Source of the DNA: Saccharicrinis fermentans DSM 9555 = JCM 21142
GTDB taxonomy: Bacteria; Bacteroidota; Bacteroidia; Bacteroidales; Marinilabiliaceae
Length of the DNA stretch: 64,000 nucleotides
NCBI RefSeq assembly: GCF_000517085.1
Contig: NZ_KI912107.1
Span: 1,364,398-1,428,397, forward strand
Direction of reading: 5' to 3'
The notes below the pieces were generated by a model. The model saw nothing but the letters and a program-made list of their open reading frames with translations. It was not told the origin of the DNA and ran no database searches. This document shows, one piece after another, positions 21,444 through 51,653 of the stretch (positions are counted from its first letter, which is position 1; each line of letters opens with the position of its first letter). The translations under genes were made by a program, and so were the position numbers.

Positions 21444-21474
21444 GAAAACGCTTTCGACGAATGTAATCGTTTAC
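21444..21474 (+). promoter_or_regulatory. Paired LacI-type operator upstream of the symporter gene
   Basis: Two 12-bp near-palindromes centred on CG: GAAAACGCTTTC at 21444-21455 and GTAATCGTTTAC at 21463-21474. Their starts are 19 bp apart. The right one differs by one base from GTAAACGTTTAC, the left by three. The same 19-bp arrangement recurs at 25806 and 33920. The likely binder is the LacI protein encoded at 36832-37857. A TAnnTTTG -7 element (TACATTTG, 21522-21529) lies downstream, 33 bp before the symporter start. Confidence 0.7.
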
Positions 21475-21561
21475 GAAATTGTTTTTTCTTGTTATAGTAG
21501 GCTTAACTACTAGCTATAATTTACATTTGTAAGGAATTCAGACAAAATAATAAACTATTAT

Positions 21562-23292
21562 ATGGCATTTAAAGATTTAATAGTATTTTTTTTATATATC
21601 CTTGGAAATGTAGGAATCAGTATTTTTTTAGGAAAAAAAATAAAAGATTCGGATGATTTCTTTGCTGCAGGCCGTCAATCATCATGGTGGCTAAGTGGCT
21701 TGTCAGCTTTTATGACCATGTTTTCTGCAGGCACTTTTGTGGTCTGGGGAGGAATAGCTTTTAAAGCTGGATTTGTTGCCGTAACCATCTCCATGTGTTT
21801 GGGGATAAGTGCCATGTTTGTGGGATATTACCTGGCAGGAAAATGGCGTAAGTTGGGCGTATCTTCAGCCGCTGAATATATTACCTTGCGATATGGAAAC
21901 TGGGCATTAAATGTTTATACTTGGTTTAATATTTTGTACCGGCTGTTAGGTATGGCTGTCGCATTATATTCTTTAGCTATTGTTCTTCATGCGATTATTC
22001 CTGCAAATTGGGATGCTTTCTTTATCAATACGATTGGCATTAGTGCAGTTAACTTTATCATTATCTTTTGTGGAATCATTATTGTTGCCTATGCTATATT
22101 TGGAGGATTATGGGCCGTGTTGTTAACCGATGTATTACAATTTGTAATTCTGATGGTAGCAGTAATAGCAGTTATTCCATTGGGTTTTATGAAAATGGGA
22201 GGCATCTCAATATTTATACAGCAAGCTCCAGAGAAATTCTTTGCACCGGTAAATCATGAATTTACCTGGATATTTATGGCCGCTTGGGTCGTTATCCATA
22301 TGTTTAAGATTGGTGGGGAATGGGCTTTTGTGCAACGTTTTATCTGTGTATCTAAAACTAAAGATGCAAAAAAAGCTACTTATTTGTTTGGTGCGTTATA
22401 TTTCATCAGTCCTATTATTTGGATGTTGCCTCCTATGATGTACCGTATCATTGACCCATCTGCAAATTTTGAGCAAGCCTATGTGTTGGCCTGTAAATAT
22501 GCACTACCGGAAGGTTTACTTGGATTAATGATTGCTTCTATGTTTGCTGCAACGGTTAGTATGATTGATTCTGAATTAAATGTTTATGCAGGTGTTTTAA
22601 CCAAAGATTTTTATAAAAAGATATTTAAAAAAGCTACCGAAAAAAATCAGGTGGTTGTGGGTAGAATATTAACCCTTGTATTGGGGGCTTTAGTTACCTG
22701 GTTAGCTATTCTGGTTCCTCAAATGGGGGGAGCAGAAAATATTATCCTTTCTATTACAGCTCTGGTGGCCGGAATAACAGTATTACCTGTTGTTTGGGGA
22801 ATGTTCTCTAAGAAGATTAACCAACAGGGAATTTTTATGGCCATATTAATAAGTGCAGCATTCATTATTCTTGCCAAATATGGTTTTTTGACTAGTGAAG
22901 GATGGTTTATTACGGATAATCCTTCTGGTATTTTTACTTGGATATTAAATTATGCACGTACCATTGAAGCTGTTTTGGGAGTAATCATACCTGTTGTTGT
23001 ACTTTTGGCCATTGAGGCTTCTTTAAAAACGGGAAGCAAGCATTTTATTCCCATTAACGAACATTGTGAAGAAGGTGAGAACGGAGAGTCATCATTGTTT
23101 CCAGCTAAGATTATGGCTGTTTCAATTGGAATTCTAGCCACTATTATTGCCCTATTGGCCATAACAGCTACCAAAGATATCACATCACAATGGGTATTAA
23201 GTATATCCCTATATCTTATTAGTGGAGGTATCTGGTTTTCTGTTAAGAAAAAAGAAAAAAATAGACAGACGTCTGTTAATTGTAATAATTAG
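21562..23292 (+). CDS. Sodium:solute symporter (SSS family)
   Basis: The protein is 576 aa with about 13-14 hydrophobic helices and no cleaved signal. The family is shown by the N-terminal KKIKDSDDFFAAGRQSSWW segment, by SAAEYITLRYG near residue 110, and by the helix around IFGGLWAVLLTDVLQFVILM. These are typical of SSS transporters for sugars and organic acids. It should move a monosaccharide or sugar acid with Na+ across the inner membrane. It is followed after about 130 bp by the FAD-dependent oxidoreductase gene and preceded by the paired LacI-type operator, so the two form an inducible unit ending at the terminator at 25765. The substrate is unknown; the neighbouring oxidoreductase suggests a sugar or sugar derivative that is oxidised after uptake. 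Confidence 0.9.
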   Translation: MAFKDLIVFFLYILGNVGISIFLGKKIKDSDDFFAAGRQSSWWLSGLSAFMTMFSAGTFVVWGGIAFKAGFVAVTISMCLGISAMFVGYYLAGKWRKLGVSSAAEYITLRYGNWALNVYTWFNILYRLLGMAVALYSLAIVLHAIIPANWDAFFINTIGISAVNFIIIFCGIIIVAYAIFGGLWAVLLTDVLQFVILMVAVIAVIPLGFMKMGGISIFIQQAPEKFFAPVNHEFTWIFMAAWVVIHMFKIGGEWAFVQRFICVSKTKDAKKATYLFGALYFISPIIWMLPPMMYRIIDPSANFEQAYVLACKYALPEGLLGLMIASMFAATVSMIDSELNVYAGVLTKDFYKKIFKKATEKNQVVVGRILTLVLGALVTWLAILVPQMGGAENIILSITALVAGITVLPVVWGMFSKKINQQGIFMAILISAAFIILAKYGFLTSEGWFITDNPSGIFTWILNYARTIEAVLGVIIPVVVLLAIEASLKTGSKHFIPINEHCEEGENGESSLFPAKIMAVSIGILATIIALLAITATKDITSQWVLSISLYLISGGIWFSVKKKEKNRQTSVNCNN

Positions 23293-23419
23293 TTTTTTAG
23301 AAGAAAAAGAAATATATAAAAATAAGACAAGTATATAGACGAATATCGAATGAAATTTCACTGCCCTTGAATTCATTAGTCTTTTGTCTGTATACTTTTA
23401 TCTTGATACTTTTTATACC

Positions 23420-25735
23420 ATGAAAACAAAGAACGAAAAATACGAAGTTGTAGTAGTAGGTGGAGGAATGGCTGGATTTTGTGCGGCTGTTTCCTCTGCT
23501 AGAATGGGAAGAAAAACTTGTTTAATTCAAAATCGTCCTGTTTTTGGAGGTAACTGTTCATCTGAGATTGGTGTAACCATACATGGCGCAGCTGCCTTTC
23601 ATGCTTATGCACGTGAAACAGGTATTATCTCAGAATTATTGATCGAAGAGCGTTCACAAAATCATGCTGAGATATATGAGAATGGTTGGATTAACAGTGT
23701 TTGGGATATGGTGATGTATGATATGGCAGTGAAAGAGGAAGATTTAACTTTTTATCTTAATACTGACATGCGTGATGTTAAAATGTCTTCAGACAATAAA
23801 ATTGAAGCCGTAGTTGCTTATATACAAAGTGCAGAGACTGAGTTAATTATTGAAGGAGATATTTTTGCGGATTGTACTGGTGATGGTATTGTAGCAGATA
23901 GGGCAGGTTGCGAATGGCGTTGGGGTTCAGAATCAAAAAGTGAATTTAACGAAATTCATGCTCCAGAAGTAGGCAGTAAAGAGGATGTAATGGGTAACTC
24001 TATCCATTTTAGATGTAAGGATATGGGGCGTCCAGTTCCTTTTAAAGCACCTGATTGGGCTGTAAAGCACGATAATCCGGAATACTTTTATAATCAAGGA
24101 CGTATACCTAAGGATAAACGAGGTGGATTTTGGTGGTTGGAGATAGGCGTGCCTTATAATACCATTTATGATAATGAGGATATTCGTCATGAATTAACCC
24201 GACATACTTTAGGCGTTTGGGATTGGATGAAAAATTGCGACCCCAAGATGAAAGAGGAAACAAAAAATTATGCGATAGATTGGATTGGTCAGGTTCCTGG
24301 GAAACGTGAGAATCGTCGTATTATGGGTGAATACTTTATGACCGAGAATGATATTCAGGAGAAAACGGTATTTAGAGACGAAATTGGTTTTGGTGGATGG
24401 TTTGTTGATCTTCATACCCCAGGAGGATTGTTGGCAAGGCATGCCGAAGCATCTGCAGCTACGGATGGTGAAGAATACAATACCTTCGACGAATACATGG
24501 TAAAATCCTATTGCGGTCCATACGGTTTTCCTTTACGATCTTTAATTGCAAGGGATGTGGATAACCTAATGATGGCAGGACGTAATATTAGTTGTTCACA
24601 TGCGGCACTTGGTACATTAAGAGTTATGGGAACAACCGCCGTTATGGGCGAAGCCATTGGTGTGGCTGCTTCTACAGCTATTAAGCATGGTGTAAATATA
24701 AAAGAGGTTCCTCAAAAATATATTTATGAAGTTCAACAGAACTTGTTACGTAATGGATGCTTTTTACCAAATGTTAAGAATACCGATAAAAAAGATTTAG
24801 CATTAAAAGCAAAAATAATAGCAAGTAGCGAAGATTATTTGCTAGGCGCAGGTCCGGAATCAAAAGGTTTTCACGAAGGTTTGGCTATCTGGAAGGATCA
24901 ACCTCAGTATCATGTGGAGACTTTAGAGACCATTAAAGGTCAGATTGTGGGAATAGGGAGTGATAGATTAGACTCAGTTTCTGTTTGTTTAACAAATACT
25001 TCTGATATAGAGCAAGAAGTTGAAGCTTATATACGTCCGATAGATAGTATTTGGGATTATCGAGTTGATGCAAATGAAGTTATTGCTTCTGCAATTTTAA
25101 AAGTTCCGGTTGGTGAAAAAGTTTGGATAGATTGGGAGGTAAACCTTACCAAGGAAAATGGACTGCCATTAAATCAATATGTTAGAATCGATTTGGGAGC
25201 TAATAATAATTTGGAATGGCATGAAGCAGGTTGTGTAATCCCGGGACATACAGCGATGTATCAAATTGGAAAGAATAAAATGCGTCGTTACTACAATGGA
25301 AATACATTGAGTTTTAAGGTTTCTCCAGCACAAAACTGTTTTAAGGCCACAAATATTATTACAGGGGAGTCCAGACCTCATTCGTATACCAACGTATGGA
25401 TTTCAAATAGAAATAATCCGTTAGATCAGTGGTTACAATTAATCTGGGATACACCGCAAGATGTTAGTTTGGTTGAGTTGACATTTCCGGGGCATTTGTT
25501 AAGAGAGTATCATGCATACGCACCGTTATATCGAGATCCTCAGTGTCCTAAAGATTTAGAAATTCAAGGTTTTATTAATGGTGGCTGGGTTAAAATTGCT
25601 GAGATTAACGACAATTATCAACGTCAGCGAAAAGTTAAACTCGATAAATCTTATTCGTTAAGTCAATTAAGAATAGTTATTAAAACTACCAATGGTGATG
25701 CGAGTGCTATGATTTACGAGGTTAGGGTATATTAG
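23420..25735 (+). CDS. FAD-dependent oxidoreductase (FAD_oxidored family) with C-terminal discoidin-like domain
   Basis: The protein is 771 aa from the ATG at 23420. There is no signal peptide, so it is cytoplasmic as written. A Rossmann FAD-binding motif lies at the N-terminus (VVVVGGGMAGFCAA), followed by VFGGNCSSEIG; the second FAD contact region is NLMMAGRNISCSHAALG near residue 390. The C-terminal 130 residues (from about SYTNVWISN) have the look of an F5/8 type C (discoidin-like) sandwich, which is odd for an intracellular enzyme. Related proteins are often annotated only as FAD-dependent oxidoreductase or xanthan lyase-like, without a proven reaction. With the symporter upstream, oxidation of an imported sugar is a reasonable but unproven role. 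Confidence 0.8.
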   Translation: MKTKNEKYEVVVVGGGMAGFCAAVSSARMGRKTCLIQNRPVFGGNCSSEIGVTIHGAAAFHAYARETGIISELLIEERSQNHAEIYENGWINSVWDMVMYDMAVKEEDLTFYLNTDMRDVKMSSDNKIEAVVAYIQSAETELIIEGDIFADCTGDGIVADRAGCEWRWGSESKSEFNEIHAPEVGSKEDVMGNSIHFRCKDMGRPVPFKAPDWAVKHDNPEYFYNQGRIPKDKRGGFWWLEIGVPYNTIYDNEDIRHELTRHTLGVWDWMKNCDPKMKEETKNYAIDWIGQVPGKRENRRIMGEYFMTENDIQEKTVFRDEIGFGGWFVDLHTPGGLLARHAEASAATDGEEYNTFDEYMVKSYCGPYGFPLRSLIARDVDNLMMAGRNISCSHAALGTLRVMGTTAVMGEAIGVAASTAIKHGVNIKEVPQKYIYEVQQNLLRNGCFLPNVKNTDKKDLALKAKIIASSEDYLLGAGPESKGFHEGLAIWKDQPQYHVETLETIKGQIVGIGSDRLDSVSVCLTNTSDIEQEVEAYIRPIDSIWDYRVDANEVIASAILKVPVGEKVWIDWEVNLTKENGLPLNQYVRIDLGANNNLEWHEAGCVIPGHTAMYQIGKNKMRRYYNGNTLSFKVSPAQNCFKATNIITGESRPHSYTNVWISNRNNPLDQWLQLIWDTPQDVSLVELTFPGHLLREYHAYAPLYRDPQCPKDLEIQGFINGGWVKIAEINDNYQRQRKVKLDKSYSLSQLRIVIKTTNGDASAMIYEVRVY

Positions 25736-25764
25736 AGGTATGGGGAATAGATGTATATATAGTT

Positions 25765-25792
25765 GGCTGCACCTTTGGGGGCAGCCTTTTTT
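25765..25792 (+). terminator. Rho-independent terminator after the oxidoreductase
   Basis: Stem GGCTGC/GCAGCC with a 10-nt loop followed by six T's, 30 bp after the stop codon. It ends the symporter-oxidoreductase unit just before the operator cluster of the next SusC gene. Confidence 0.85.
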
Positions 25793-25805
25793 ATTCAACA
25801 ACTTC

Positions 25806-25848
25806 GTAATCGTTTACGATGAATGTAAACGTTATCGTAAACGGTTAC
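25806..25848 (+). promoter_or_regulatory. Triple LacI-type operator upstream of SusC
   Basis: Three 12-bp sites with a CG centre: GTAATCGTTTAC (25806-25817), GTAAACGTTATC (25825-25836) and GTAAACGGTTAC (25837-25848). Each differs from GTAAACGTTTAC by one or two bases. The first two start 19 bp apart, as in the other two operators of this regulon; the third directly abuts the second. They lie 126 bp before the SusC start. Confidence 0.75.
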
Positions 25849-25866
25849 GTCTTTAATAATGAAGTT

Positions 25867-25924
25867 ATGTATTGTTAGCACATGTTAAAATAAGTTACTT
25901 CGTATAGTAATACTAACAATACAT
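25867..25924 (+). repeat. 12-bp perfect inverted repeat in the SusC leader
   Basis: ATGTATTGTTAG (25867-25878) and CTAACAATACAT (25913-25924) form perfect arms around a 34-nt spacer, which itself holds a small TTACT/AGTAA stem. It lies between the operators and the SusC start, so it may be a leader RNA structure or a widely spaced protein site. There is no T-run, so it is not a standard terminator. Confidence 0.55.
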
Positions 25925-25973
25925 GATGTGAATATCAAAAAAAGCTATTTATATCTATTTAAACATTTATTCT

Positions 25974-28900
25974 ATGAAAAGAGTACTTAGGAGGATCCTT
26001 GCCAAAAGAGGATTGCTGACAATTTCCTGGATGTTTCTATTTGCGATAACATTATCGGCAATAGAAAATTCATCAGGTACCACAAACAATAAGATTCAAG
26101 AGGATGGCAAAAGAACTATTACTGGAAAAGTAATGGATGAATATGGAGATTTATTACCAGGTGTATCTGTGGTTATAGAAGGAACTACAATTGGCACAAT
26201 TACAGATATTGAAGGGAACTATAATCTAGTAATCACTGAAGGTGCCAAATATTTAGTTTTTTCTTTTGTTGGAATGGAAGATCAGCGGGTTTCATTAGGA
26301 ATTGAGAATACAGTGAACGTTGTGTTAAAGTCCGGAGTTATCGGTCTAGAAGAGATAGTGGCTGTGGGTTATGGAACTACTAAAAAGAAAGACCTAACAG
26401 GTTCTGTTGCTATTGTGAAAGCAGATGAGATTACCACAAAGAAAACAACGAATATTTCAGAGGCTATTCAAGGAGTGGTTCCTGGAGTATCTGTTACAAG
26501 AAGTAGTGGTGCTCCTGATGCGTCAACAACAATTCGTATGCGTGGTTTTACCACCATGCAGGGTTCCAGTGTCCCACTAATTCTTGTGGATGATATTCCT
26601 GTAGGAAGCATCGATGATGTGAACCCTAATGATGTTCAATCGATGTCTTTCCTAAAGGACGGAGCTGCTGCTGCGATTTATGGTTCACGTGCAGCTGCGG
26701 GGGTTGTGATTATAACAACCAAACGAGGACGTAGTGATAAAATATCGGTAAACTACGATTACAACTATTTTGTTCGTACCCCCACCCGAACACCTAAGGT
26801 AGTTGGGGTTGAAAAATGGTTACAAATGCGTAACGAATATGAGTGGAATGACCTTGGAAATCCAGAAGGTGGTGAATTTGCGCTGTATAGTGAAGATTAT
26901 ATCAATAACTATTTGCAAAATAATGCAGATAGTCCAGATGAGTATCCAAATACCAATTGGGAAGAGTTATTAATGAAGGATTTCTCTACTGGTCAAAGGC
27001 ATTCATTTAATATTTATGGGGGGAATAAGGTATTAAAGACAAATGCTTCTTTTACTTATGAGAAGCAGGATGCACTTTATGATCACTATGATTATGAGAG
27101 AGCTATTATGCGTGTAAATAATGATATTAAAATCAGTGATAATATTGGTGCAGTAGTTGATTTTACATACAAAAGAACGGTAACAGAAAAACCAACAGTT
27201 AACCCAACGGCTGCTTCTCGTAGTTATCCGGCCATATACGCTGGACAGTGGAGTGATGGTAGAGTAGCCTCTGGTAAAGACGGATCAAATATCTGGGCCG
27301 AGTTACAATATGGAGGTTTTAATGATAAAGAATCTCATTTGTTATATGGAAGATTAGGAGCGTGGATTAAACCTATAAATGATTTAAAACTATCTATGTA
27401 TTATGCTCCTAATATGTACTTTGAGAAGAATAAATATTTTAGAAAATCTGTCCCTTATTGGGACTGGGATAATCCAAACAATGAAGGTACTCCTCTGGGG
27501 TATGCAATTTCATCAACTTCGCTACAAGAAAGTAGAACGGATAATAGTAAAAATACGCTTCAGTTTATTGGTAAATATAATAAAAACTTTGGTAGACATA
27601 AGGTGGAAGCCATGGCTGGTTACGAAGAATATTCCTTTAATGAAGAAAAGTTAAGTATTGAAGGTAAGGAATATATCTTGCAGGATTATCCATATCTAGA
27701 TATGGCACCAGAAGGTCAATTGTTTGCAAATGGAAGTAATACCGGTGAGGAAGATAAGAATTATAGATCTGCTTTTGGTAGAGTTGCTTATAATTATAGT
27801 AGCAAATATTACTTGCAGGCTAACTTTAGGGCAGATGCATCTTCTCGATTTGCTGAGGATTACAGATGGGGTTATTTTCCTTCGGTTTCTGCAGGTTGGC
27901 TAGTTACTGGAGAAGATTTCATGAGTTCCATTGATGCAATTTCTTATTTGAAGTTACGTGCTTCATACGGGGAGTTGGGTAATGATCGCTTAGGTAACTA
28001 TATCTATATGTCGCAAATTGATTTTGCTAACATTCTATTATCACAAGGAAATACTTCCGTTTCGGATGTTGCGGCTGCTCAATATCAGCTTGCTATTGAG
28101 GATATTAAGTGGGAAGTAACAAAAACTTGGGACATTGGTGTGGATGCTGCATTTTTTAATAATAGTTTATCTGTTACTGCAGATTACTATAAAAAAGAAA
28201 CTACAGATATGTTGTTGAGTTTAACAACTCCTGATTTAATAGGGTATGATGATCCTTATTATAACGTGGGAGATATGAAAACAACGGGCTGGGAGTTTTC
28301 TTTGGAATATAATAACAAAATAGGGGATCTATCCTATGGGGGTGGCTTTAATATTTCTGATTATACTTCTACTATTGGTGATGTATCTGGAAGAAGATTA
28401 TTTGCAGATAGTAGTACTAAACTTTCGGAAGAAGGTGGCGAGTTTAAAGAATGGTATGGTTACAAAACTGATGGTATTTTTCAAACACAGGATGAAGTTG
28501 ATGCCTATGTTACACCGAGTAGTAAGATAGGAGTTGGAGATGTTAAATATTTGGATATTAGTGGACCAGAAGGTGTTCCGGATGGGATTATTAGTGCTGA
28601 ATATGATAAAGTAAAACTAGGAAGTTCAACCCCTCATTACGAATATGGAGGAAATATAAAATTAGGATACAAAGGTTTCCAGTTTGTAGCAACATTCCAG
28701 GGGGTTGGAGAATGGAATCGTAGAATTTATCCCGCTATGGTTGAACCGTTTGGTGAAAGGTGGCAGAATGTGCCGGACATCTATGAGAAAAGTTACTTTA
28801 GCTATTACAATACGCCGGAGCAAAACTTAAAAGCTAAATATCCACGTTTAGGTTTTCAAACAAAAAGCCACAATTACGGTATGTCAGATTTTTGGTTGGT

Positions 28901-29123
28901 GGATGGTTCATATTTCAGATTAAAGAATATTAACCTAAGCTATACTTTGCCTAAAAATATAATAGATAAAACAGGTATTGGTTTAAGCGATGTTAAGGTT
29001 TATTTCTCAGGTTCAGACTTGTTCTCTATAGACAATTATCCTGATGGATGGGATCCGGAAGTGGGAAGTAGTTCATATGCCATTACAAAGACATACTTGT
29101 TTGGTATTTCCGTTAAACTTTAA
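25974..29123 (+). CDS. SusC/RagA-like TonB-dependent transporter (LacI regulon)
   Basis: The protein is 1049 aa. A long signal region (charged to about residue 13, hydrophobic to about 30) is followed by the carboxypeptidase-like sandwich (RTITGKVMDEYGDLLPGVSVVIEG). The TonB-box region EEIVAVGYG comes next, then the plug with GVVPGVSVTRSSGAPDAS, MRGFTTMQ, LVDDIPVG and FLKDGAAAAIYGSRAAAG, and the beta-barrel ending LFGISVKL. It imports glycans across the outer membrane together with the SusD encoded 11 bp downstream. The triple operator upstream and the LacI gene at the end of the region suggest induction by a pathway intermediate. The substrate is not identified; the sulfatase and GH30-like hydrolase nearby suggest a sulfated or substituted glycan. 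Confidence 0.93.
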   Translation: MKRVLRRILAKRGLLTISWMFLFAITLSAIENSSGTTNNKIQEDGKRTITGKVMDEYGDLLPGVSVVIEGTTIGTITDIEGNYNLVITEGAKYLVFSFVGMEDQRVSLGIENTVNVVLKSGVIGLEEIVAVGYGTTKKKDLTGSVAIVKADEITTKKTTNISEAIQGVVPGVSVTRSSGAPDASTTIRMRGFTTMQGSSVPLILVDDIPVGSIDDVNPNDVQSMSFLKDGAAAAIYGSRAAAGVVIITTKRGRSDKISVNYDYNYFVRTPTRTPKVVGVEKWLQMRNEYEWNDLGNPEGGEFALYSEDYINNYLQNNADSPDEYPNTNWEELLMKDFSTGQRHSFNIYGGNKVLKTNASFTYEKQDALYDHYDYERAIMRVNNDIKISDNIGAVVDFTYKRTVTEKPTVNPTAASRSYPAIYAGQWSDGRVASGKDGSNIWAELQYGGFNDKESHLLYGRLGAWIKPINDLKLSMYYAPNMYFEKNKYFRKSVPYWDWDNPNNEGTPLGYAISSTSLQESRTDNSKNTLQFIGKYNKNFGRHKVEAMAGYEEYSFNEEKLSIEGKEYILQDYPYLDMAPEGQLFANGSNTGEEDKNYRSAFGRVAYNYSSKYYLQANFRADASSRFAEDYRWGYFPSVSAGWLVTGEDFMSSIDAISYLKLRASYGELGNDRLGNYIYMSQIDFANILLSQGNTSVSDVAAAQYQLAIEDIKWEVTKTWDIGVDAAFFNNSLSVTADYYKKETTDMLLSLTTPDLIGYDDPYYNVGDMKTTGWEFSLEYNNKIGDLSYGGGFNISDYTSTIGDVSGRRLFADSSTKLSEEGGEFKEWYGYKTDGIFQTQDEVDAYVTPSSKIGVGDVKYLDISGPEGVPDGIISAEYDKVKLGSSTPHYEYGGNIKLGYKGFQFVATFQGVGEWNRRIYPAMVEPFGERWQNVPDIYEKSYFSYYNTPEQNLKAKYPRLGFQTKSHNYGMSDFWLVDGSYFRLKNINLSYTLPKNIIDKTGIGLSDVKVYFSGSDLFSIDNYPDGWDPEVGSSSYAITKTYLFGISVKL

Positions 29124-29134
29124 AAGAATATATA

Positions 29135-30904
29135 ATGAAGAATCTATTAAAAGCAATAATTATAATGATTGCGGTTGGAATTACATCTTGTAATGATATG
29201 GATGTAGTACCAACAGATAGCGCATCCTCCGGTAATTGGTACTCTAATATTGATCAAATCAGGTGGTCTCTTAATGATGGTTATAGAGTCACTTTCTGGA
29301 AAACAGATGATGAATCATGGACGGATAATTGGACACAAAGGACATCAGTAAGTGAAATAGTATCTGGGTCGGTTACCAGTTCTTTTGGTTCTGCAAAAAC
29401 TAATTGGGCGCATTTATACAAGGCAATAACAAGGTCAAATATTCTTATTCGTGAAATCCCATTGGCTACTTATTTAGCCGAAGAAGTAAGAAATAAATTG
29501 GTTGCAGAAGCATATTTTATGAGGGCTTCATATTATTCTTATTTGGTGACTCATTTTGGTGATGTTCCTTTTTTATTGGATGAGATTACGATTGATGAAT
29601 CATTTGAAGTAGAGCGCACTGATAAAAATGTAATTCTTGAACAAATTTACAAAGATTATGATTTTGCCGCAGAGTGGTTGCCGGCAGAGTATGGCGCTAA
29701 TGAAAAACGTTATGCCTCATCAGGTGCAGCTTTAGCCTTGAAAGCAAGGGTTGCTTTATATATGGGTGACTATGCTATTTCAGCCGATGCATCAAAGGCA
29801 TGTATGAATTTAGGTGTGTATGAGCTTCATGACAGCTATGGTGAGTATTTTTTGCCAGAAACAAAGAACTCAAAGGAAACTATATTTGCTATTCCAAGAA
29901 ATTCTGATTTGGACGATTATTTAGGAAAAAATTATCCTCAAAAGGCCACTCTACCACGTAATAGAGATGGATGGGGAGCGTACAATCCTTCATGGGAGCT
30001 ATTGGCTGCTTATACTTGTACTGATGGCTTACCTATTGATGAATCACCATTATTTGAATCGACTAACCCATTTAAAAACCGTGATCCTCGTTTGATGGAG
30101 ACAATTATACCCTTTGGTTCTTTAAAAGATGGGGATGGTTTGGTTCCTGAATCAGGTTATAGATTTCTAGATCGTGAATACAATCCACATCCAGATGCCA
30201 AGAAAATATTGAATTATGCTATAGGAACACAGGTAAAGAATAATGATACAAAATCTGTTGCCCAGTATGCTAGTTTTAATGGTTTACTATGGAAGAAAGG
30301 AGTAAATGAGAAATGGACTGAATTCTTAGCAGATCCAGATAATGTAATTATTCGTTATGCAGATGTGTTATTAATGTATGCTGAAGCTAATATAGAGTTA
30401 GGTTCTTCCCATATTGATGCTTCTGTATTAGAGGCAATTAATAAGGTTCGGGCCAGAGCGTATGGTGTAGATGTGGCAGATGTGGCAAATTATCCAGCGG
30501 TTATAAGTACCAACCAGGATGAACTTCGCTTGATTGTTAGAAATGAGCGCCGTGTGGAATTTGCCAACGAAGGATTGCGTTATATGGATTTAATTAGATG
30601 GAGATTGGCAGAAAAAGCATTAGTAGGTAATATCTACGGGTTATTAGATGTAAACGTAAAAGCGTCTGGAGCTGCTACAGGTCCGTTAGTTGATGAGGTT
30701 ACCAGTAAGGGACTTTGGTTTTGGGGATTAAAACCTGAGATTGATGATGAAACCGGATTGCCTGATTTTACAAATCTACATGATGCAGGCTTGTGTAAAG
30801 TAATTGCAGTTCGTAATTTCGATGCAACACGCCAATATTTATGGCCTATTCCTGCAGAAGAAAGAAAGATTAACGAGAACTTAGGACAAAATCCTAATTA
30901 TTAA
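29135..30904 (+). CDS. SusD/RagB-like surface glycan-binding lipoprotein (LacI regulon)
   Basis: The protein is 589 aa. The signal peptide ends at the lipobox GITSC, followed by NDMDVVPTD. SusD signatures include EAYFMRASYYSYLVTHFGDVP, ALALKARVALYMGDY, NPFKNRDPRL and LRLIVRNERRVEFANEGLRYMDLIRW, with the typical C-terminal ENLGQNPNY. It starts 11 bp after its SusC, so the two are co-translated, and a rho-independent terminator follows. It binds glycan at the cell surface as the lid of the SusC channel. Confidence 0.92.
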   Translation: MKNLLKAIIIMIAVGITSCNDMDVVPTDSASSGNWYSNIDQIRWSLNDGYRVTFWKTDDESWTDNWTQRTSVSEIVSGSVTSSFGSAKTNWAHLYKAITRSNILIREIPLATYLAEEVRNKLVAEAYFMRASYYSYLVTHFGDVPFLLDEITIDESFEVERTDKNVILEQIYKDYDFAAEWLPAEYGANEKRYASSGAALALKARVALYMGDYAISADASKACMNLGVYELHDSYGEYFLPETKNSKETIFAIPRNSDLDDYLGKNYPQKATLPRNRDGWGAYNPSWELLAAYTCTDGLPIDESPLFESTNPFKNRDPRLMETIIPFGSLKDGDGLVPESGYRFLDREYNPHPDAKKILNYAIGTQVKNNDTKSVAQYASFNGLLWKKGVNEKWTEFLADPDNVIIRYADVLLMYAEANIELGSSHIDASVLEAINKVRARAYGVDVADVANYPAVISTNQDELRLIVRNERRVEFANEGLRYMDLIRWRLAEKALVGNIYGLLDVNVKASGAATGPLVDEVTSKGLWFWGLKPEIDDETGLPDFTNLHDAGLCKVIAVRNFDATRQYLWPIPAEERKINENLGQNPNY

Positions 30905-30921
30905 GTAAATAATAAAGATGA

Positions 30922-30956
30922 GAAAGGGTTTGACTTTCAGTCAAGCCTTTTTTTTT
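30922..30956 (+). terminator. Rho-independent terminator after SusD
   Basis: An imperfect stem (AAAGGGTTTGACT against AGTCAAGCCTTT) with a 3-nt loop runs into a nine-T tract. It lies about 18 bp after the SusD stop and before the convergent regulator gene. Confidence 0.8.
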
Positions 30957-30997
30957 GCTCAATAGATAAATGGCTGGTAGGTATTTGCTACTAACCT

Positions 30998-32245
30998 TTA
31001 TTGCACTGAATTAAAATCTTCTTTAAAGGAAATATCCCCATTGATAGAATTTAATTCAAAATCGTCAATGGAGCCGGTTCCGTAAAATAAAATCTCAACC
31101 CCTTTAATTAAACCAAGCTCTCTTTTGTAGTTTTGGGTATAAATAACATCATCATTGATGATAAAGTTAAGTTGTTTGTCTGAGTTTTGTATCTCCACAT
31201 TACCCCAGTCTGTTAAATCCACACAGAAAGCCGACATATCGTCCTGACTACCATTTTTGCCTATTTCACTATAACGGGCTAATATCCAGTATGAACAGCC
31301 TGGTTTTGAAAAATACTGCTGTATCATGCCACTTTCACATTTGACTCGTACAACAATGTTATTGCAATTGGTTTGTGGCCAGAAACCCGCATTCTTAATT
31401 CGCATCTTTAAACGAAAATTATCCCCGTCAATGCCAAAATCCTGGTAATTTAATAAGCGAAGTATGGAGATTTGTGTGGTATCCATTCCACATTTTGCCA
31501 TATCAGAAGTGTTTAGGTGCCAGTATCCATTTGATTTTTGAATAATATCCCGGTCAATAGGGAATATTGTATTATCTTGGTTCATACGTCGTGCTGTTCC
31601 TATAGCTGCCCATCCATCAGAAGGAATCGTTACTTTTGATAATGTTTTAACAACCTTGTTATTTTTTATAATCTGTGGCTGGAAAATACCGGGGTATTTG
31701 TAAAAATGAGCAATGTTGCTTTTTTTCTTAGGAATTTGCACAGTATCCATATAGTCGCCAAAATAGATAGTGTAGTTATTCTTTTTGTGATCTTCTCCTT
31801 CTAACTTAAAAAATACGGTGGCTGTGTTTTTACCTTCTGTACGGTCTAATTTAAGTTTAGTATCAATCGTTGAAACTTTATAGCTTGAATGTGTAATAAT
31901 ATAATAGGTACCTGCTCCAATTAATATAACACATAAAGATATAAGTGCTATTTTAATTTGGTTTTTACTAATACTTAGTTTTCTTGAGTTAATAATTTCA
32001 GAACGAATACTTATTGCGTATTTTTCCAGTGCCAGATGTGTTGCTTCCTGGGGAGTATAGTTTTCTTTTGTTTTTAGCTTGCCAAAAATCCTTTTTAAAG
32101 TACTCGCACTAACTATAACTTTTGTTTTTTGTTGTATCAAGAAACTCAGGTTGTGATAATCTTTATTTTTCCATGTTTCTATTTTGCCTTTATTAAAATA
32201 GCGTTCGAATATATCTTGTATTTCCTCTGTAGTAAGCTTGTTCAT
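30998..32245 (-). CDS. Membrane-anchored one-component regulator: HTH-like N-terminus, one TM helix, large periplasmic sensor
   Basis: The protein is 415 aa from the ATG at 32245; the frame extends 27 residues upstream, but those residues look like 5' leader. Residues 1-95 are charged and helical, with VSASTLKRIFGKLK resembling the recognition helix of small HTH proteins in Bacteroidota. One transmembrane helix lies at about 97-118 (IALISLCVILIGAGTYYII). The remaining 300 residues face the periplasm. A PKD-like sandwich at about 130-210 (VFFKLEGED, NYTIYFGDYMDTV) is followed by a lectin-like jelly roll (GYWHLNTSD, FRLKMRIKN, GVEILFYGTG). There is no kinase, receiver or anti-sigma motif. This ToxR-like layout suggests direct control of nearby genes by a periplasmic glycan. 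It is divergent from the sulfatase. Confidence 0.6.
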   Translation of the reverse strand: MNKLTTEEIQDIFERYFNKGKIETWKNKDYHNLSFLIQQKTKVIVSASTLKRIFGKLKTKENYTPQEATHLALEKYAISIRSEIINSRKLSISKNQIKIALISLCVILIGAGTYYIITHSSYKVSTIDTKLKLDRTEGKNTATVFFKLEGEDHKKNNYTIYFGDYMDTVQIPKKKSNIAHFYKYPGIFQPQIIKNNKVVKTLSKVTIPSDGWAAIGTARRMNQDNTIFPIDRDIIQKSNGYWHLNTSDMAKCGMDTTQISILRLLNYQDFGIDGDNFRLKMRIKNAGFWPQTNCNNIVVRVKCESGMIQQYFSKPGCSYWILARYSEIGKNGSQDDMSAFCVDLTDWGNVEIQNSDKQLNFIINDDVIYTQNYKRELGLIKGVEILFYGTGSIDDFELNSINGDISFKEDFNSVQ

Positions 32246-32452
32246 TGTTGATATGCATCTTTGTAATTGACAGATGTAAAGCAAGTTAAGTTGCTCGCGT
32301 TTATGCGCAGCTTTTGCATAACACAAAAGTATTAAAATATCGTTCTAATCTATATTTTTAAGATAAGAAACAAGTTAATAACGGCATGGAGTAGTCAACA
32401 ATTGTAAAAAATGAAAAAGAAGACTATTGCATGATACAAATACATTTTTAAT

Positions 32453-33838
32453 ATGAGAACTTTAGTATTATTAATTGCGCTACAATTATTATCCCCGGTT
32501 ATATGGGCTAAAAAGCGCACATACACACGTCCAAATTTTATTGTTATTTATACCGATGATCAGCAATATAATGGTGTTGGTTATACGGGTAATGATATTA
32601 TTAATACGCCTTTTATAGATAAGTTGGCGTCAAAGTCATTGAAATTTACTAATGCCAATGTAGCCTTTGCGCTTTGTAGTCCAAGCCGTGCTGCGATGCT
32701 TACCGGGCGATATAACAGTGCTAATGGAGTATTGCAACTTAATAGTAAGCTAAACAAAGGCGAAGTATCTGTTGCTTCCTTGTTGAAAGAAGCAGGTTAT
32801 TCAACTGCTATGACAGGAAAATGGCATATACCTCAAAAACCAAAGCAATTAGGTTTCGATTTTTTTAGTTATATGTATTCCAATGGAACCTATTATAACC
32901 GTCAGTTTTTTGAGGAAGGAGATACTTTAAAACCTGCAATACATTGTGATTTATATGCAGCCAATAAGGCGAAAGAGTATCTAAATAAAAAAGCTAAAAA
33001 AGATGAACCGTTCTTTTTATACTACTGTGCCCAAACGCCACACATGAATGGTAAGCTAATATGGGATGCTAAAGGGGAAACGAAAGCACAGTATGATTAT
33101 AAAGATATGCCAGTGCCAGCCAATCATGCTGATGATTTATCGGATAAACCTGAATATCTGAAGAAAGTACGTAATCGCAGACAGGCTAAAAAATACGGTT
33201 ACCCCGATTCAACAGCTATTCAAAAACATGCGCTGGATTACTATTCTGTAATAACAGAGCTGGATGGTTTTGTCGAAGGATTAATCAAAGAGGTAAAAAG
33301 TCTTGGCCTATTGGATAATACCTACATCTTTTTTATGAGCGATAATGGATGGATGGTTGGTGACCATGGATTTACCAGTAAAGTACTTCCTTATCGTCCT
33401 GCCAGTCATGTTCCATTTTTTGTGTTAGGACCTGGTATAAAGAAAAATACTGAATCGAACACTATGGTTTCTAATATCGATATAGCACCAACTATGCTCG
33501 ATTTAGCAGGAGTATCGGTACCTGATTATATGCATGGTAAAAGTTTAAAAGATGTTCTTACTCAAAAAGAAAGTGTTGTTCGTGATATATTTATTTACGA
33601 AGGGGTAGGTAAATATGGTGGTTCAAGACCAAATCTCACGGCTATTTCTGACGATTACAGGTTGATCATTACTTATAAAGATGAAACGTTAAAAGAAGAA
33701 TCATTCCGCGAATTATATCATCAAAAGAAAGATAAGTGGGAAATGACTAATCTGGCTTCAAATCCGGAGTATGCCTCTGTGGTTCGTAAGTTAGAGTCAG
33801 ATATTAAAAAGCATAAAATTGAAGTTTTAGGAATGTGA
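32453..33838 (+). CDS. Type I sulfatase, exported (sulfatase S1 family)
   Basis: The protein is 461 aa with a signal peptide to about residue 20. The formylglycine motif is CSPSRAAMLTGR, with the Cys at residue 75, so it needs an anaerobic or aerobic sulfatase-maturating enzyme, which is not encoded in this window. Metal-binding residues are visible in the N-terminal IYTDDQQ and in FMSDNGWMVGDHG. It removes sulfate esters from a glycan, probably in the periplasm. The subfamily cannot be fixed by eye. It is divergent from the membrane regulator and upstream of the GH30-type genes, so it probably acts on the same substrate as the SusC/SusD pair before it. No LacI-type operator lies directly upstream. 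Confidence 0.9.
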   Translation: MRTLVLLIALQLLSPVIWAKKRTYTRPNFIVIYTDDQQYNGVGYTGNDIINTPFIDKLASKSLKFTNANVAFALCSPSRAAMLTGRYNSANGVLQLNSKLNKGEVSVASLLKEAGYSTAMTGKWHIPQKPKQLGFDFFSYMYSNGTYYNRQFFEEGDTLKPAIHCDLYAANKAKEYLNKKAKKDEPFFLYYCAQTPHMNGKLIWDAKGETKAQYDYKDMPVPANHADDLSDKPEYLKKVRNRRQAKKYGYPDSTAIQKHALDYYSVITELDGFVEGLIKEVKSLGLLDNTYIFFMSDNGWMVGDHGFTSKVLPYRPASHVPFFVLGPGIKKNTESNTMVSNIDIAPTMLDLAGVSVPDYMHGKSLKDVLTQKESVVRDIFIYEGVGKYGGSRPNLTAISDDYRLIITYKDETLKEESFRELYHQKKDKWEMTNLASNPEYASVVRKLESDIKKHKIEVLGM

Positions 33839-33919
33839 AAAAATGGTGCATCAAAGTATTTATTGTATATGATTTGTCAAGTGAAAGATACTATATTCAT
33901 ATTATAAAAGAAACTTTTC

Positions 33920-33950
33920 GGAAACGCTTACGGCGATTGTAAACGTTTAC
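33920..33950 (+). promoter_or_regulatory. Paired LacI-type operator upstream of the GH30-type genes
   Basis: GGAAACGCTTAC at 33920-33931 and the perfect palindrome GTAAACGTTTAC at 33939-33950, starting exactly 19 bp apart. The perfect copy defines the consensus used for the sites at 21444 and 25806. It lies 85 bp upstream of the ORF at 34035. Confidence 0.75.
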
Positions 33951-34034: not shown

Positions 34035-34661
34035 ATGTTAGTAAAAATAATAGTTGTCGTTTTTATTCTTTCAACCATCCTTTCTCAATTATCCGCTCAA
34101 CTAATAAGCGTTGATGAAGGTTCGTGCGAAGAGGAATATAAGGGGACAGGTATTTTCTGTATTTCATATCTGGGCCAATATTTGCGTATGTGGAATAGCT
34201 GGCAGTTAGGGGCTTTTCGTATGCTGTATGAAGAACTAGTCATAAATTATGTTAAATTTTATTCAAGATATAGGGCAAAGGATAATCCAGATAGATATAA
34301 TGATGTTTTAGTTGCTATTGGCAATGCTAAAGTATACAATCATGACTTGACGGTGTTAATATGTACGCACAATCTGCCTGGTGAGTTGAAGGATGACTGT
34401 GACATAGGTGATTATTACAATCATGAATGTGGCTCGCATCTTGTGAGTGATGTTGCGATAGCTCGACATATGATTGATTTATTTAATATAGGTGGAAATG
34501 TTTTTCTTGCATTTTTAACTAATTCACATAAGTTTCCTCTTAAGGCCGGATTATTCGCCACCACTTGGAATGGCAAATCTGTAAGAAACTCCATCTTCTA
34601 TGGATTTAAGCACCTGTCGGCTACGCATTCTTTATATTCGGGAAGGGTAACCGTGATTTAA
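34035..34661 (+). pseudogene. Probable internally deleted GH30-like gene (208-aa ORF)
   Basis: The ORF is intact but looks like an enzyme with its middle missing. There is a signal peptide (about residues 1-22, ending LSAQ). VLVAIGNAKVYNHDLTVLICTHNLPGELKDD then resembles the early barrel of GH30-type hydrolases, where a similar stretch reads trp-Ser-Pro-Pro. The last part (DLFNIGGNVFLAFL, GFKHLSA, SGRVTVI) resembles the end of such barrels and the closing beta domain. The two Glu-bearing motifs of clan GH-A are absent. It sits behind a perfect paired operator and 111 bp before an intact GH30-like gene, so it may still be transcribed. The family link rests on weak motif similarity; an unrelated small exported protein is possible. 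Confidence 0.45.
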
Positions 34662-34772: not shown

Positions 34773-36701
34773 ATGTACAAAAGTGAAATTTTAATAATTA
34801 CTATGTTTTTGTTCTTGAGTTGGGGAATGAATGCCCAATCAATAAAAGAAGAACAATTACAGGGTACTGTAGACATACATACAGATCAATATAAGCAAAC
34901 AGTTTGGGGAATAGGCTTCGAGATTCAAAGTGATGCCATTGGTTCCGGAAATACTGGATTGCCAGAAGAAAGACACGCAGTGCCACACGATTTAACGCCA
35001 AGCGAGCGTGAACGTTTTGCAAAAGAAATGTTGGACGGTTTTCGATATTGTCGTTTAGCTGGTGGACTGTATTGGAGAGGACTGGATGCCGAAAAAAAAT
35101 ATTTAATGCCACGTTGGCCTGAGCAATTGGAAGAGCTGCGTCAGATGATGGAATGGGCTGGTGTTGAAGGTGTATCATTGGAGTATTGGTCGCCACCACC
35201 ATATTGGAAAGCTAATTTGAAGTATGTAGGTAAGGGAAGTAAAGATAGGACTAACACCCTACGTTGTTTTGGACCGGACTTTGTAAATGATCCTGTATAT
35301 AAGGGTGACACGGCTAAGTTTTTAAAAGAATATGGACAGGCGTGTGTAAAAGATATTGAGACGTTAAAAGAAGCAGGTATAAAAACAGTACAGTGGGGTA
35401 TTAGCAATGAACCCTTTACTAATAATGCACAATATTCCTCGTGTAAGTTTTTTTCTGCCGAGGATTATATTAGAGCTTATGTTGCTTCAGCGAGTGCTGT
35501 TAGAAATTTAGATTCTACAATCTTGTTAATGAGTGATACAGAACCAGGTTATCCAAGAAAAATTGCTAAAGGAATGCACAGGCGTGAAGTGGCTGAGTTA
35601 GTAGATGCTTATGTGGTACATACCATTGGATGGGACTCAGAACGCGTTAAAAATGTTCATGAAAAAATCAGTAAAACATTGCCTAAGCGTCCTTGGTTTC
35701 AAAATGAATATGAGTATTTAAAAGGCAGTGCAAGTCCTGAACGCTGTTTAAATACTGCTCAACATATCATGAATTCATTTCAGTTGGGGCAAAATCCTAC
35801 ATGGTATTGGATTCATGCTCTAAAGCCTTTTAAGAATTCTGAAGCAAGTGGATATTCATTAGGTTTTTGGAAATCTCAATTGCCGGGTCATGAGCCAAAA
35901 AATATTGGAAAATATGAACGATGGGTTAAAGGTGATATTATAACTAAAATGCCTGAAATGTTCAAAAAAATGGAGTATCTGAATGGTATTCGTCCTTCAG
36001 ATAAAGAACCTGGTGTGTATTATAGTTTTATTTTGAATCAACCTGCCACAGCTTATATGTTGGTTGATCAGGTAGGTGGGTATGAGCCAATAGGATGGAC
36101 CAAGACAGAACTAAAGGTAGTTCGTTCGCAAGGAACTGATATTGTATATACCAAAAAGCTTAAGAAAGGAAATAATTCTGTTGCTAAACATGATGGAAAG
36201 AATGGAGATACTTATGGAGCTCCTCATGCTTTGTTCTTAGATGGTGAAGATATGCAAACCTTTGAAGTAGAGGTGGGAGTAAATAGTCCAATGAAGATTC
36301 GTTCAAAGGCTATGAAGTTAGAATTGGAGGCCGATAAAATGAAGCCAGGGAGTTGGATATATAATGATTTCAACTGGAATGCTGTAGGGAGTTTCGTAAA
36401 ACGTATGCCATGGGATTGCAGAGTAATAGATTTAACTGAAAATAACTATCATAAAGATGCACGTGTTTTTGCATATGAAAAACCGAACGGAAAGCGAGTT
36501 GTCGTTGTATCTAATCGCACTGGAGCTGATTATACTTTTTATTTAAATACGGGTATTGATAGAGCAAAATGGATTGGTTATCGTTATACTCCTTGGGAAA
36601 GAGGAGAAAATACCATGGGTGTAAAAGTTGGGAATAAAAAAGGGAAAAGCTTTTCTGTAACATTGCCTGATTTGTCATGGGAATTTTGGGAAGAGCGTTA
36701 G
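34773..36701 (+). CDS. GH30-like clan GH-A glycoside hydrolase, exported
   Basis: The protein is 642 aa with a signal peptide to about residue 21 (GMNAQ). The barrel domain carries SLEYWSPPPYWK (the Ser-Pro-Pro element of GH30-type enzymes), GISNEPF with the acid/base Glu213, and WFQNEYEY with the nucleophile Glu312. The later part (about residues 520-642) is a beta domain ending VTLPDLSWEFWEE. Clan GH-A is well supported; the precise family is less sure because the sequence is diverged. It would cleave a beta-linked glycan in the periplasm or outside. It is the last gene of the putative LacI regulon, facing the LacI gene across a bidirectional hairpin. Confidence 0.75.
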   Translation: MYKSEILIITMFLFLSWGMNAQSIKEEQLQGTVDIHTDQYKQTVWGIGFEIQSDAIGSGNTGLPEERHAVPHDLTPSERERFAKEMLDGFRYCRLAGGLYWRGLDAEKKYLMPRWPEQLEELRQMMEWAGVEGVSLEYWSPPPYWKANLKYVGKGSKDRTNTLRCFGPDFVNDPVYKGDTAKFLKEYGQACVKDIETLKEAGIKTVQWGISNEPFTNNAQYSSCKFFSAEDYIRAYVASASAVRNLDSTILLMSDTEPGYPRKIAKGMHRREVAELVDAYVVHTIGWDSERVKNVHEKISKTLPKRPWFQNEYEYLKGSASPERCLNTAQHIMNSFQLGQNPTWYWIHALKPFKNSEASGYSLGFWKSQLPGHEPKNIGKYERWVKGDIITKMPEMFKKMEYLNGIRPSDKEPGVYYSFILNQPATAYMLVDQVGGYEPIGWTKTELKVVRSQGTDIVYTKKLKKGNNSVAKHDGKNGDTYGAPHALFLDGEDMQTFEVEVGVNSPMKIRSKAMKLELEADKMKPGSWIYNDFNWNAVGSFVKRMPWDCRVIDLTENNYHKDARVFAYEKPNGKRVVVVSNRTGADYTFYLNTGIDRAKWIGYRYTPWERGENTMGVKVGNKKGKSFSVTLPDLSWEFWEER

Positions 36702-36831: not shown

Positions 36832-37857
36832 TTAACCCGGCTTTCTCATAGATGATGGACGTAATACAAGTTTTCCTCTCATTGAAATAACTTTGTCAGA
36901 ATAAGTTTTGACATCTCCTTCTTCAATTTGTTTTAAAAGCAAATCGGCCGATTTCTTGCCCATATCGAAATATTCTTGTTTGATTGTTGATAATGCTGGT
37001 TCAATTAACTCTGCGGATTTAGAATCTGAAAAACCAAAAAAACCTATTTCTTCAGGAATCTTGTATCCTTTATTCTTAAATTCTTTCATAGCTCCAATAG
37101 CCATAAAGTCATTGCATGAAAAAACGGCATCGGGAATATTATTACACTCAAGCATCTTTTGTGCAATTTTTTTTCCTCCTTCCACAGTGAAATGACCATC
37201 AAACAAATAAGAGTCATCAAAAGGTAACTTGTATTTTTTTAAGGCATCTTTATACCCTTTGATTCGTTTGTCTACAAAAGAAATTTCTTGGTCTGCATAA
37301 AGATGATGTATTTTTTTATATCCTTGTAATATAAGGTGTTCTGTTGCGAAGAAAGCACATTTGTAATCGTCTAAGATAACTTGGGGAGCAGGTATTTTAT
37401 CGCTAACTCTATTAAAAAAAACCATAGGCATCTCTTGTTGTACAAGTTCTTGAAAGTGTTCAATGTTGGCTGTGTTTTTACACATAGAAATGATAAGTCC
37501 ATCAACCATGTTTTCTTTCAACTTATTGAGTATATCTATTTCTGCTTTTTGATCCTCATTGGATATCATAATTAAGGCCTGATAGCCTGCTTTAATTAGG
37601 GTGTCTTGTATGCCTACAATAACTTTCGGGAAGAACATATTTGTAAATTCAGGTATCATAACACCGATTGTATAGGATCGTTTTTGGATTAATCTTTTCG
37701 CAATGGAGTTTGGAGTATATCCCATCTCTCTGGCTTTTTTTAGGATCATTTCCTTAGTATCCTTCCTTATATCGTATTTGTCATTGAATGCTCTGGAAAT
37801 TGTTGCCACCGAAACATTTAATTCTTTTGCTATATCTTTAATAGTTATGTGTTTCAT
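36832..37857 (-). CDS. LacI-family transcriptional regulator
   Basis: The protein is 341 aa. The N-terminal HTH reads TIKDIAKELNVSVATISRAFN, followed by the hinge helix with NSIAKRL, whose Leu normally inserts at a central CG step. From about residue 62 it has the periplasmic-binding-protein-like sugar-sensing domain (TIGVMIPEFTNMFF, VFFNRVSD, PDAVFSCNDFMAIGA, EEIGFFGFSD). It is cytoplasmic and dimeric. The CG-centred palindromes at 21444, 25806 and 33920 are the natural candidate operators, since this is the only LacI gene in the window and it sits at the end of that gene block. Whether the ligand relieves repression or triggers activation cannot be told. No perfect copy of the site lies in its own promoter region. 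Confidence 0.93.
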   Translation of the reverse strand: MKHITIKDIAKELNVSVATISRAFNDKYDIRKDTKEMILKKAREMGYTPNSIAKRLIQKRSYTIGVMIPEFTNMFFPKVIVGIQDTLIKAGYQALIMISNEDQKAEIDILNKLKENMVDGLIISMCKNTANIEHFQELVQQEMPMVFFNRVSDKIPAPQVILDDYKCAFFATEHLILQGYKKIHHLYADQEISFVDKRIKGYKDALKKYKLPFDDSYLFDGHFTVEGGKKIAQKMLECNNIPDAVFSCNDFMAIGAMKEFKNKGYKIPEEIGFFGFSDSKSAELIEPALSTIKQEYFDMGKKSADLLLKQIEEGDVKTYSDKVISMRGKLVLRPSSMRKPG

Positions 37858-50453: not shown

Positions 50454-50512
50454 GGTATTTAGCTTTGTTTAGAAAAAAGAAGGTAAAGAGGTAAGTGTTA
50501 ATCTATAATATA

Positions 50513-51610
50513 ATGAATATAAGACAAGTAACATATGGTTTAATTGTGGGGATGATAGTTCTTGCTTGCGGCACCACACCCAAAAAAGCAGAAACAGTTG
50601 AAAATGTCATTCTTCAAAAACTTGGTAAAACAAAAGCCAAAGGTATTCTATTCGGACATCAGGATGACCTGGCCTATGGAATGCAATGGAGTTATGTGGA
50701 CGGGGAGTCAGATGTTAAAAGAGTAACAGGAGATTATCCAGCTATGTTTGGATGGGAATTGGGAGGAATTGAAGAAGATAGAGTTGTAAACCTCGATAGT
50801 GTTCCTTTTGATGCCATAAAGCGATTGACTATATGGGGACATAAACAAGGAGGAATAAATACTTTTAGCTGGCATCCATTTTCTCCTATAAATAGTATAA
50901 GTTCCTGGAATGGAGACTCGGTTGTGGTTAAACACCTTATTCCTGGAGGATCCTATCACGAACAGTTTAAAGTGCAATTGGATAAAGTATCTGTTTTTCT
51001 TCAAGAGCTGAAGGATGAAAAAGGAAAATCCATTCCCTTTATATTCCGCCCTTGGCATGAAATGGATGGCAACTGGTTTTGGTGGGGAAGAAACGCCTGT
51101 ACACCTGAGGAAGTCAAAGCATTGTTCCGTTTTACCATTGAATACCTACGTAAGGAGAAAGGTCTGGATCAAATGCTTGTGGCATACTCACCAGATAGAA
51201 ACTTTGACACTAAGGAGGAGTATTTGACCTGGTATCCGGGTGATGATGTGGTAGATATAGTGGGAATGGATGATTATTGGGATTTCAAACAAGAAAATGG
51301 AGAGCTGGATGTCATCAAGAAACTACATATCGTTATTGAAACCGCCAATCAAAAAGGGAAACTTTCTGCTTTAACAGAAACTGGGTGTTCCAATGTGACT
51401 GATTCGCTTTGGTTCACGAAAAAACTGAGCTTTGTTTTAAATGATAGTATAATCAGTAAAGAGTTAAGTTATGTCATGCTATGGAGAAATGATCCAAAAG
51501 TACATTTCTTTTTCCCGTATCCCGGTCATCCTGCAGCTCAAGATGCTAAACAGTTTAGTCAGCAAGCTAATATATTGCTTTTAAGAGATTTTGTAGGGAT
51601 GACAAAATAA
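50513..51610 (+). CDS. GH26 beta-mannanase/mannobiohydrolase, lipoprotein
   Basis: The protein is 365 aa from the ATG at 50513; a GTG 18 bp earlier is less likely. The lipobox VLAC is followed by GTTPKKAE, which lacks acidic residues near the Cys and so predicts retention on the periplasmic side. The single GH26 domain shows [15 protein letters not shown] (acid/base Glu183) and [10 protein letters not shown] (nucleophile Glu289). It lacks the N-terminal modules of the first GH26. By comparison with known Bacteroides mannan systems, this second GH26 is likely to release mannobiose from imported oligosaccharides, which is the substrate of the epimerase and phosphorylase. It is followed by the GH130 gene after a few bases. 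Confidence 0.92.
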
Positions 51611-51653
51611 AAGTATGAATGACCTAGTCGTAAACAATATAAAAACATATAGA

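Follow-up and report, generated by a model that had tools for sequence, protein, structure and literature searches.

A polar array of LacI-type operators upstream of the -7 element in Saccharicrinis fermentans and other Bacteroidota suggests activation by a LacI-family protein

In a survey of LacI-family regulators (Ravcheev et al. 2014, PMC4052901), tandem sites were found upstream of 1118 operons and triple sites upstream of 116, and the distances between sites peaked at 13, 22, and 32 bp. RafR and ScrR use obligatory double operators at 21–22 bp, and Escherichia coli GntR has overlapping sites at gntKU. For overlapping LacI-type sites about 13 bp apart, the survey states as a puzzle that the bound dimers are hard to reconcile with the structures. 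CcpA is both an activator and a repressor, and its cre sites upstream of the -35 element, as in ackA, pta, and ilvB, go with activation (PMC3463425). A regulator that is an AraC/LacI hybrid is the subject of another paper (PMC12125979). In this study, we describe an array of LacI-type operators in a 64,000-nucleotide stretch of the S. fermentans DSM 9555 = JCM 21142 genome (contig NZ_KI912107.1, positions 1,364,398 to 1,428,397 of the forward strand). This whole stretch is hereafter called the window, and positions are counted from its first letter. Three promoters in the window carry CG-centered palindromic sites, and a LacI-family regulator, P0001, is encoded at 36832..37857 on the minus strand.

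Comparison of sequences indicates that the full element is a polar array of three sites, O1–18/19–O2–12–O3, in which O1 and O3 are 30 or 31 bp, or about three helical turns, apart. Like the tandem operators in the survey, it consists of CG-centered even palindromes in tandem, triple, and overlapping arrangement, and its 12-bp and 30/31-bp distances resemble two of the surveyed peaks, whereas section 9 of the survey describes no fixed 18/19 step, no polar succession of 18/19 and then 12, and no -7 element at a locked distance. RafR and ScrR also use pairs of LacI-type sites at a fixed distance, but the distances here are 19 bp in the window and 12, 18/19, and 30/31 bp in relatives, outside the 21–22 bp of those systems; moreover, a 19-bp step does not make up complete helical turns, and it is followed by a third site 12 bp on. 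The overlapping operators of GntR at gntKU are about 13 bp apart, whereas the overlap in the present array has a 12-bp pitch and occurs only as the proximal part of a triple. With CcpA at cre, the system shares the LacI family, operators upstream of the promoter, and dependence on the helix face, and differs in its three-operator array and Bacteroidota -7 promoter; an HPr-Ser-P partner of the present regulator is not known. LacI-type sites in tandem, triple, and overlapping form have precedent (PMC4052901), and LacI-family activators are also known. The open-licence literature searched gave no account of this element, with its polar 18/19 + 12 spacing and its lock to the -7 element, or of a LacI-family activator in Bacteroidota. 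We consider it probable that the array is bound by the LacI protein encoded at 36832 and that this regulator mainly activates its operons. The element, its spacing, its polarity, its distance to the promoter, and its link to this LacI clade are each shown by sequence comparison.

The sites in the window were located by direct reading and a site scan, and all lie on the plus strand. Promoter 1 contains O1 (GAAAACGCTTTC, 21444..21455), O2 (GTAATCGTTTAC, perfect, 21463..21474), and, at the O3 position, the degenerate GAAATTGTTTTT (21475..21486). In promoter 2, O1 (GTAATCGTTTAC, 25806..25817) and O2 (GTAAACGTTATC, 25825..25836) are followed by O3 (GTAAACGGTTAC, 25837..25848), which abuts O2 at a 12-bp pitch and was also found in the pair scan. 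Promoter 3 contains O1 (GGAAACGCTTAC, 33920..33931) and O2 (GTAAACGTTTAC, perfect, 33939..33950), and a third site was absent by direct reading and site scan. Every O1 and O2 was also recovered by the profile described below. The paired sites reported by the first-pass annotation at 21444/21463, 25806/25825, and 33920/33939, with starts exactly 19 bp apart, were thus confirmed by direct reading. That annotation missed the sites at 25837 and, in degenerate form, 21475; in most relatives the element is a triple. Its proposal that 19 bp is about two turns, placing both dimers on one face, was rejected, since 19 bp corresponds to 1.81 turns at 10.5 bp per turn. The pair in phase is the outer one, at 31 bp or 2.95 turns. 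The window also departs from its relatives: in promoters 1 and 3, the best match is O2, and O3 is degenerate or absent.

All site pairs in the window with up to two mismatches per site to GWAAWCGWTTWC and spacings of 12–60 were collected. Three pairs were found at 19 bp, two at 31 bp, and two at 12 bp, with no other spacing, and the 31- and 12-bp pairs stem from the third-site positions 25837 and 21475. Exact GWAAWCGWTTWC occurs 16 times genome-wide among the matches listed, three of them in the paired-site region, and the binomial chance of three exact sites in a given 12.5 kb is about 5e-6. A profile built from the three 37-bp stretches gave only three strong matches in the 5.98-Mb genome (34–35 bits; 150 of 230 candidates were scored in the first look at the genome), and these are exactly the window promoters; the next match scored 12.8 bits. 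The paired motif is therefore not common genome-wide, and the random occurrence that the first-pass annotation named as evidence against its proposal did not appear.

The same array was found in relatives of P0001. The LacI protein was used to search a first set of 61 genomes; apart from the window's genome, seven contain a LacI relative (L002–L008; 48–55% identity over all or most of the query), and triple arrays lie close to lacI in six of the seven. In genome G019, the profile matched only weakly (E 0.0025) near lacI. Five genomes (G001, G002, G004, G018, and G033) have lacI, or a short stretch past it, on one side of the array and, on the other, a symporter gene followed by an FAD oxidoreductase gene, both resembling the window genes at 21562 and 23384. 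In G042, one array faces a SusC gene. A second set was obtained by a scan with an alignment of eight proteins, which yielded 80 loci from Bacteroidales, Flavobacteriaceae, and other Bacteroidota; five of these (L087, L103, L114, L120, and L162) are first-set records, and two locus pairs overlap. When no more than one mismatch per pair was allowed, the sites were spaced by 31 bp (38 pairs), 19 bp (32), 12 bp (30), 30 bp (13), and 18 bp (4), which together make up 117 of 131 pairs, and a reversed control pattern gave no such pair in the 80 loci. Without the seven overlapping or already seen loci, 102 of 114 pairs have these spacings. The array itself, with up to four mismatches, was detected in 61 of the 80 loci. 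Locus L170 (G004:C81) yielded no array by the triple criteria, despite a profile match there.

The array is polar with respect to its neighbors. The LacI relatives and neighboring SSS symporter or SusC genes diverge from a region that carries this array. Of 56 arrays next to a divergent lacI, 54 have O3 toward the target gene and lacI on the other side. The two exceptions (L100 and L116) are near-symmetric arrays of ambiguous direction. Among 71 arrays outside the window, some of them from G042, 42 have a symporter gene first behind O3 and 16 a SusC gene, whereas in the other 13 that place is taken by lacI or another gene, and a relative of the FAD oxidoreductase follows the array-linked symporter in 39 of 42 cases. 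Across 69 non-redundant arrays, half-sites with the four fixed letters all intact number 57 (left) and 56 (right) for O1, 14 and 52 for O2, and 46 and 53 for O3, which indicates that O2 is mostly a right half abutting O3. Linked genes include members of the sulfatase, GH2, GH43, and GH97 families. Locus L138 (Cellulophaga sp. F20128) has four arrays in 21 kb around one lacI, before different genes.

The distance between the array and the -7 element, taken as TAnnTTTG with up to one mismatch, was measured from the O3 start. The first 11 arrays had such an element at 47, 57, or 58 bp in seven cases, and the prediction was set down before new arrays were fetched. Among 55 new arrays (56 non-redundant ones minus L167, which is 97% like a training array; 101 hits over offsets 15–109), 33 had a -7-like element at 56–59 bp, 25 of them at exactly 57 bp, which bore out the main part of the prediction. 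At a redundancy limit of 60%, 31 of 53 arrays had the element at 56–59 bp, compared with a median of 3 for other 4-bp windows. The 41-bp interval between array and element showed a mean pairwise identity of 0.344, compared with 0.317 after shuffling, and the distance to the automatically called start codon varied with an SD (standard deviation) of 31 bp. Because the sequence of the interval is near chance identity while its length is kept and the distance to the start codon varies, the distance must be kept by selection. These observations also bear on the explanation by chance or common descent, in which the sites were duplicated once and the spacing was kept for lack of insertions and deletions. 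Some arrays are indeed near-identical, and the repeated records and overlapping locus pairs among the 80 loci would fit it; however, the interval length is kept at near-random identity, other distances vary, and the counts hold without the overlaps, so that we regard this explanation as highly improbable. In the window, the -7 element of promoter 1, TACATTTG (21522..21529, plus strand), starts 47 bp after the O3 start and 59 bp after the O2 start. The -7 motif spans about -11 to -4, and if it is so placed, O3 would be centered near -62. In 21 divergent cases, -7-like elements did not clearly pile up on the side of the array that faces lacI.

P0001 belongs to the LacI/GalR family by its domains (PF00356, 48.9 bits against a cut-off of 27; PF00532, 108.5 bits), and among solved structures in PDB its best match is CcpA, with PurR also matched. 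In the LacI family, residues 17 and 18 set the operator letters, and V-A goes with GTAA in GalR. P0001, with the recognition helix SVATISR by family and helix reads, has V17-A18, while the relatives have x-S18, with Ser18 in 80 of 80 (79 by pattern and L147 by eye). In the window sites GNAANCGNTTNC, T occupies position 2 in five of seven left half-sites, compared with none of 138 O1/O3 left half-sites in the relatives (Fisher 4e-8, indicative only, since the sequences are related), and position 2 is G or A in 174 of 174 half-sites of the relatives' exact sites (180 of 180 with L147). Ala18 covaries with GTAA and Ser18 with GGAA/GAAA, and the sites together with this covariation give the CG-centered palindromic operator matched to the recognition helix that is typical of LacI/GalR proteins.

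Co-occurrence points in the same direction. The regulator, at E 1e-85 or better, occurs in nine of 71 family genomes, and the array, at 1e-5 or better with a GG-type profile, in six, all among the nine; none of the 62 regulator-less genomes has a strong array. Five of the six array genomes helped to build this profile, and G192 did not. The GG-type profile misses the window's genome because its operator letters differ, and a window-type profile finds its own genome and otherwise matches only G192, weakly. Together, covariation and co-occurrence link the array to P0001. A different factor might instead bind the array, with lacI merely nearby; candidates would be another LacI paralogue, a global regulator, or the AraC-type protein encoded at 40714. 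The genome has five LacI-type proteins with a full helix plus a fragment, and the window lacI is not divergent from an array, none being found upstream of it. On the other hand, among these five full helices V-A is found only in P0001, the covariation and the co-occurrence over 71 genomes speak for P0001, arrays abut lacI in relatives, and the one other family member of the genome with adjoining CG-centered exact sites (helix SASTVSR) has GCAA-type sites, so that binding by another factor seems highly improbable. G192 has several matches to the GG-type array (C1, C3, and C90), two of them 36 kb apart on one contig, which suggests a larger regulon there.

As for the mode of action, LacI dimers would occupy the array, upstream of the core promoter, and from there touch RNA polymerase, activating uptake and degradation operons as CcpA does at ackA, and a sugar effector would decide the DNA-bound state of the regulator. 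Where operators are confined to the region upstream of the core promoter and their distance is exact to the base pair, a polymerase-contacting activator is a better fit than a steric repressor. Helix-phased operators upstream of the core promoter, a class I-type activator trait, were found in the relatives (33 of 55 at 56–59 bp) and in one of the three window promoters, at 47 bp. These features suggest that the LacI-type regulator may switch genes on here. In the alternative of ordinary LacI-type repression, cooperative dimers, perhaps with bending or looping of the DNA, would be released by the effector, and the fixed distance would reflect contact inhibition of polymerase, as known for GalR from a site near -60. 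The O1–O3 spacing near three turns suits cooperative dimers, and the O1 end of the array lies near the lacI start in relatives, as in autorepression; this proximity to the divergent lacI makes autoregulation plausible there. In addition, most family members repress, and double sites are well known (PMC4052901). However, the operators lie upstream of, not over, the -7 element and start, at a near-fixed distance, and a steric repressor needs no such place; we therefore judge repression rather doubtful.

Single sites are not enriched in the window (49, compared with 42.3 ± 7.0 in shuffles), and genome-wide, with up to one mismatch, the reversed control gave more matches (486) than the motif (313); the signal thus lies in the pairing. 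Several results weigh against the proposed binding and activation. Under the criteria used, 19 of the 80 loci had no array, and no strong array occurs in two genomes that have the regulator, G019 and G193. Among the 55 new arrays, the 46–48 bp class had three hits, barely above background though predicted, and 20 arrays had no -7-like element at 46–48 or 56–59 bp. In the window, a canonical -7 element occurs only in promoter 1, at 47 rather than 57 bp, and promoters 2 and 3 have none with up to one mismatch, only two-mismatch candidates at 54 bp. The frequency of TTG in -36..-20 was 0.42 in array promoters (n=43) and 0.21 in controls (n=28), if anything opposite to the expected weak -33 element. 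Contact or looping can also let LacI-family members repress from sites upstream of a promoter.

An absent -33 element was examined as a mark of activation and gave it no support: TTG is commoner in array promoters than in controls, and the 28 control promoters show no -33 signal either, so that this comparison does not help to decide.

The first-pass annotation had allowed for activation, which the phase-locked upstream position of the sites favors. If activation holds, LacI-type proteins would switch on, rather than only release, many sugar-utilization operons of degraders of algal and plant polymers, and arrays upstream of the -7 element, not operators over it, should be sought when regulons are predicted in Bacteroidota. 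As a conserved natural element with one register, one polarity, and one promoter distance across many species, the array makes the puzzle of overlapping operators directly testable.

The genes behind the promoters all lie on the plus strand. Promoter 1 precedes genes for an SSS-family sodium/solute symporter (21562..23292, PF00474) and an FAD-dependent oxidoreductase (23384..25735, PF12831), and promoter 2 those for a SusC/RagA-family TonB-dependent outer membrane protein (25974..29123, TIGR04056) and a SusD-family lipoprotein (29135..30904, PF07980). Directly behind promoter 3 is an open reading frame (ORF) of 208 amino acids without a Pfam or NCBIfam match (34035..34661), followed by a gene for a GH30-like protein with a weak PF17189 match only (34773..36701). 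The regulon that the annotation had assigned to the LacI protein of 36832 is supported by the array neighbors, the covariation, and the confinement of strong arrays to regulator genomes as far as the symporter–oxidoreductase and SusC/SusD genes are concerned. The GH30-like target is weaker, since promoter 3 has only two sites and no array-linked relative of the 34035 or GH30-like genes was found. The 34035..34661 ORF may be a short or decayed gene before the GH30-like gene. By eye, proteins encoded at 48504–53934 of the window (putatively GH26-like, GH130-like, and epimerase-like) resemble what we take to be a beta-mannan degradation cluster, which has no array.

A second LacI clade shows a related arrangement. 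GCAAACGNTTGC sites with a pitch of 12 bp accompany the SASTVSR-type LacI of the genome and its relatives, and in this clade (SASTVSR or SPSTVSR) GCAAACG half-sites are repeated at 12 bp and end in a full palindrome; half-site repeats were found at L013 (2725–2800), L018, L030, L024, L025, L017, L026, L028, and L034. In the first set, the proximal palindrome lies 78–79 bp from the -7 element in seven loci; for two of them, the pair's second site was the one counted. Among 28 new loci, 17 of which have an exact palindrome (40 site-orientations), 77–79 bp was seen in seven of 91 candidate -7 hits and in four of 18 exact ones, so that the prediction of 78 ± 1 bp was borne out only in part. The highest peak, nine hits, was at 15 bp, directly at the edge of the array, and four exact hits at 90 bp had not been predicted. 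The distances of 47, 57–58, 78–79, and 90 bp are suggestively close to whole-turn steps. It is possible, if still doubtful, that Bacteroidota LacI proteins constitute a class of array-binding activators spanning at least two clades that differ in their operator letters. Their dimers, in polar order at a 12-bp pitch (with the 18/19 step in the P0001 clade), would present one face to polymerase at whole-turn distances, about 47, 57, 78, and 90 bp, from the -7 element. Several second-clade loci further have in common an inverted repeat resembling ATGTTNNNNAACAT upstream and a word resembling AATGTTTA downstream, which may be bound by another factor.

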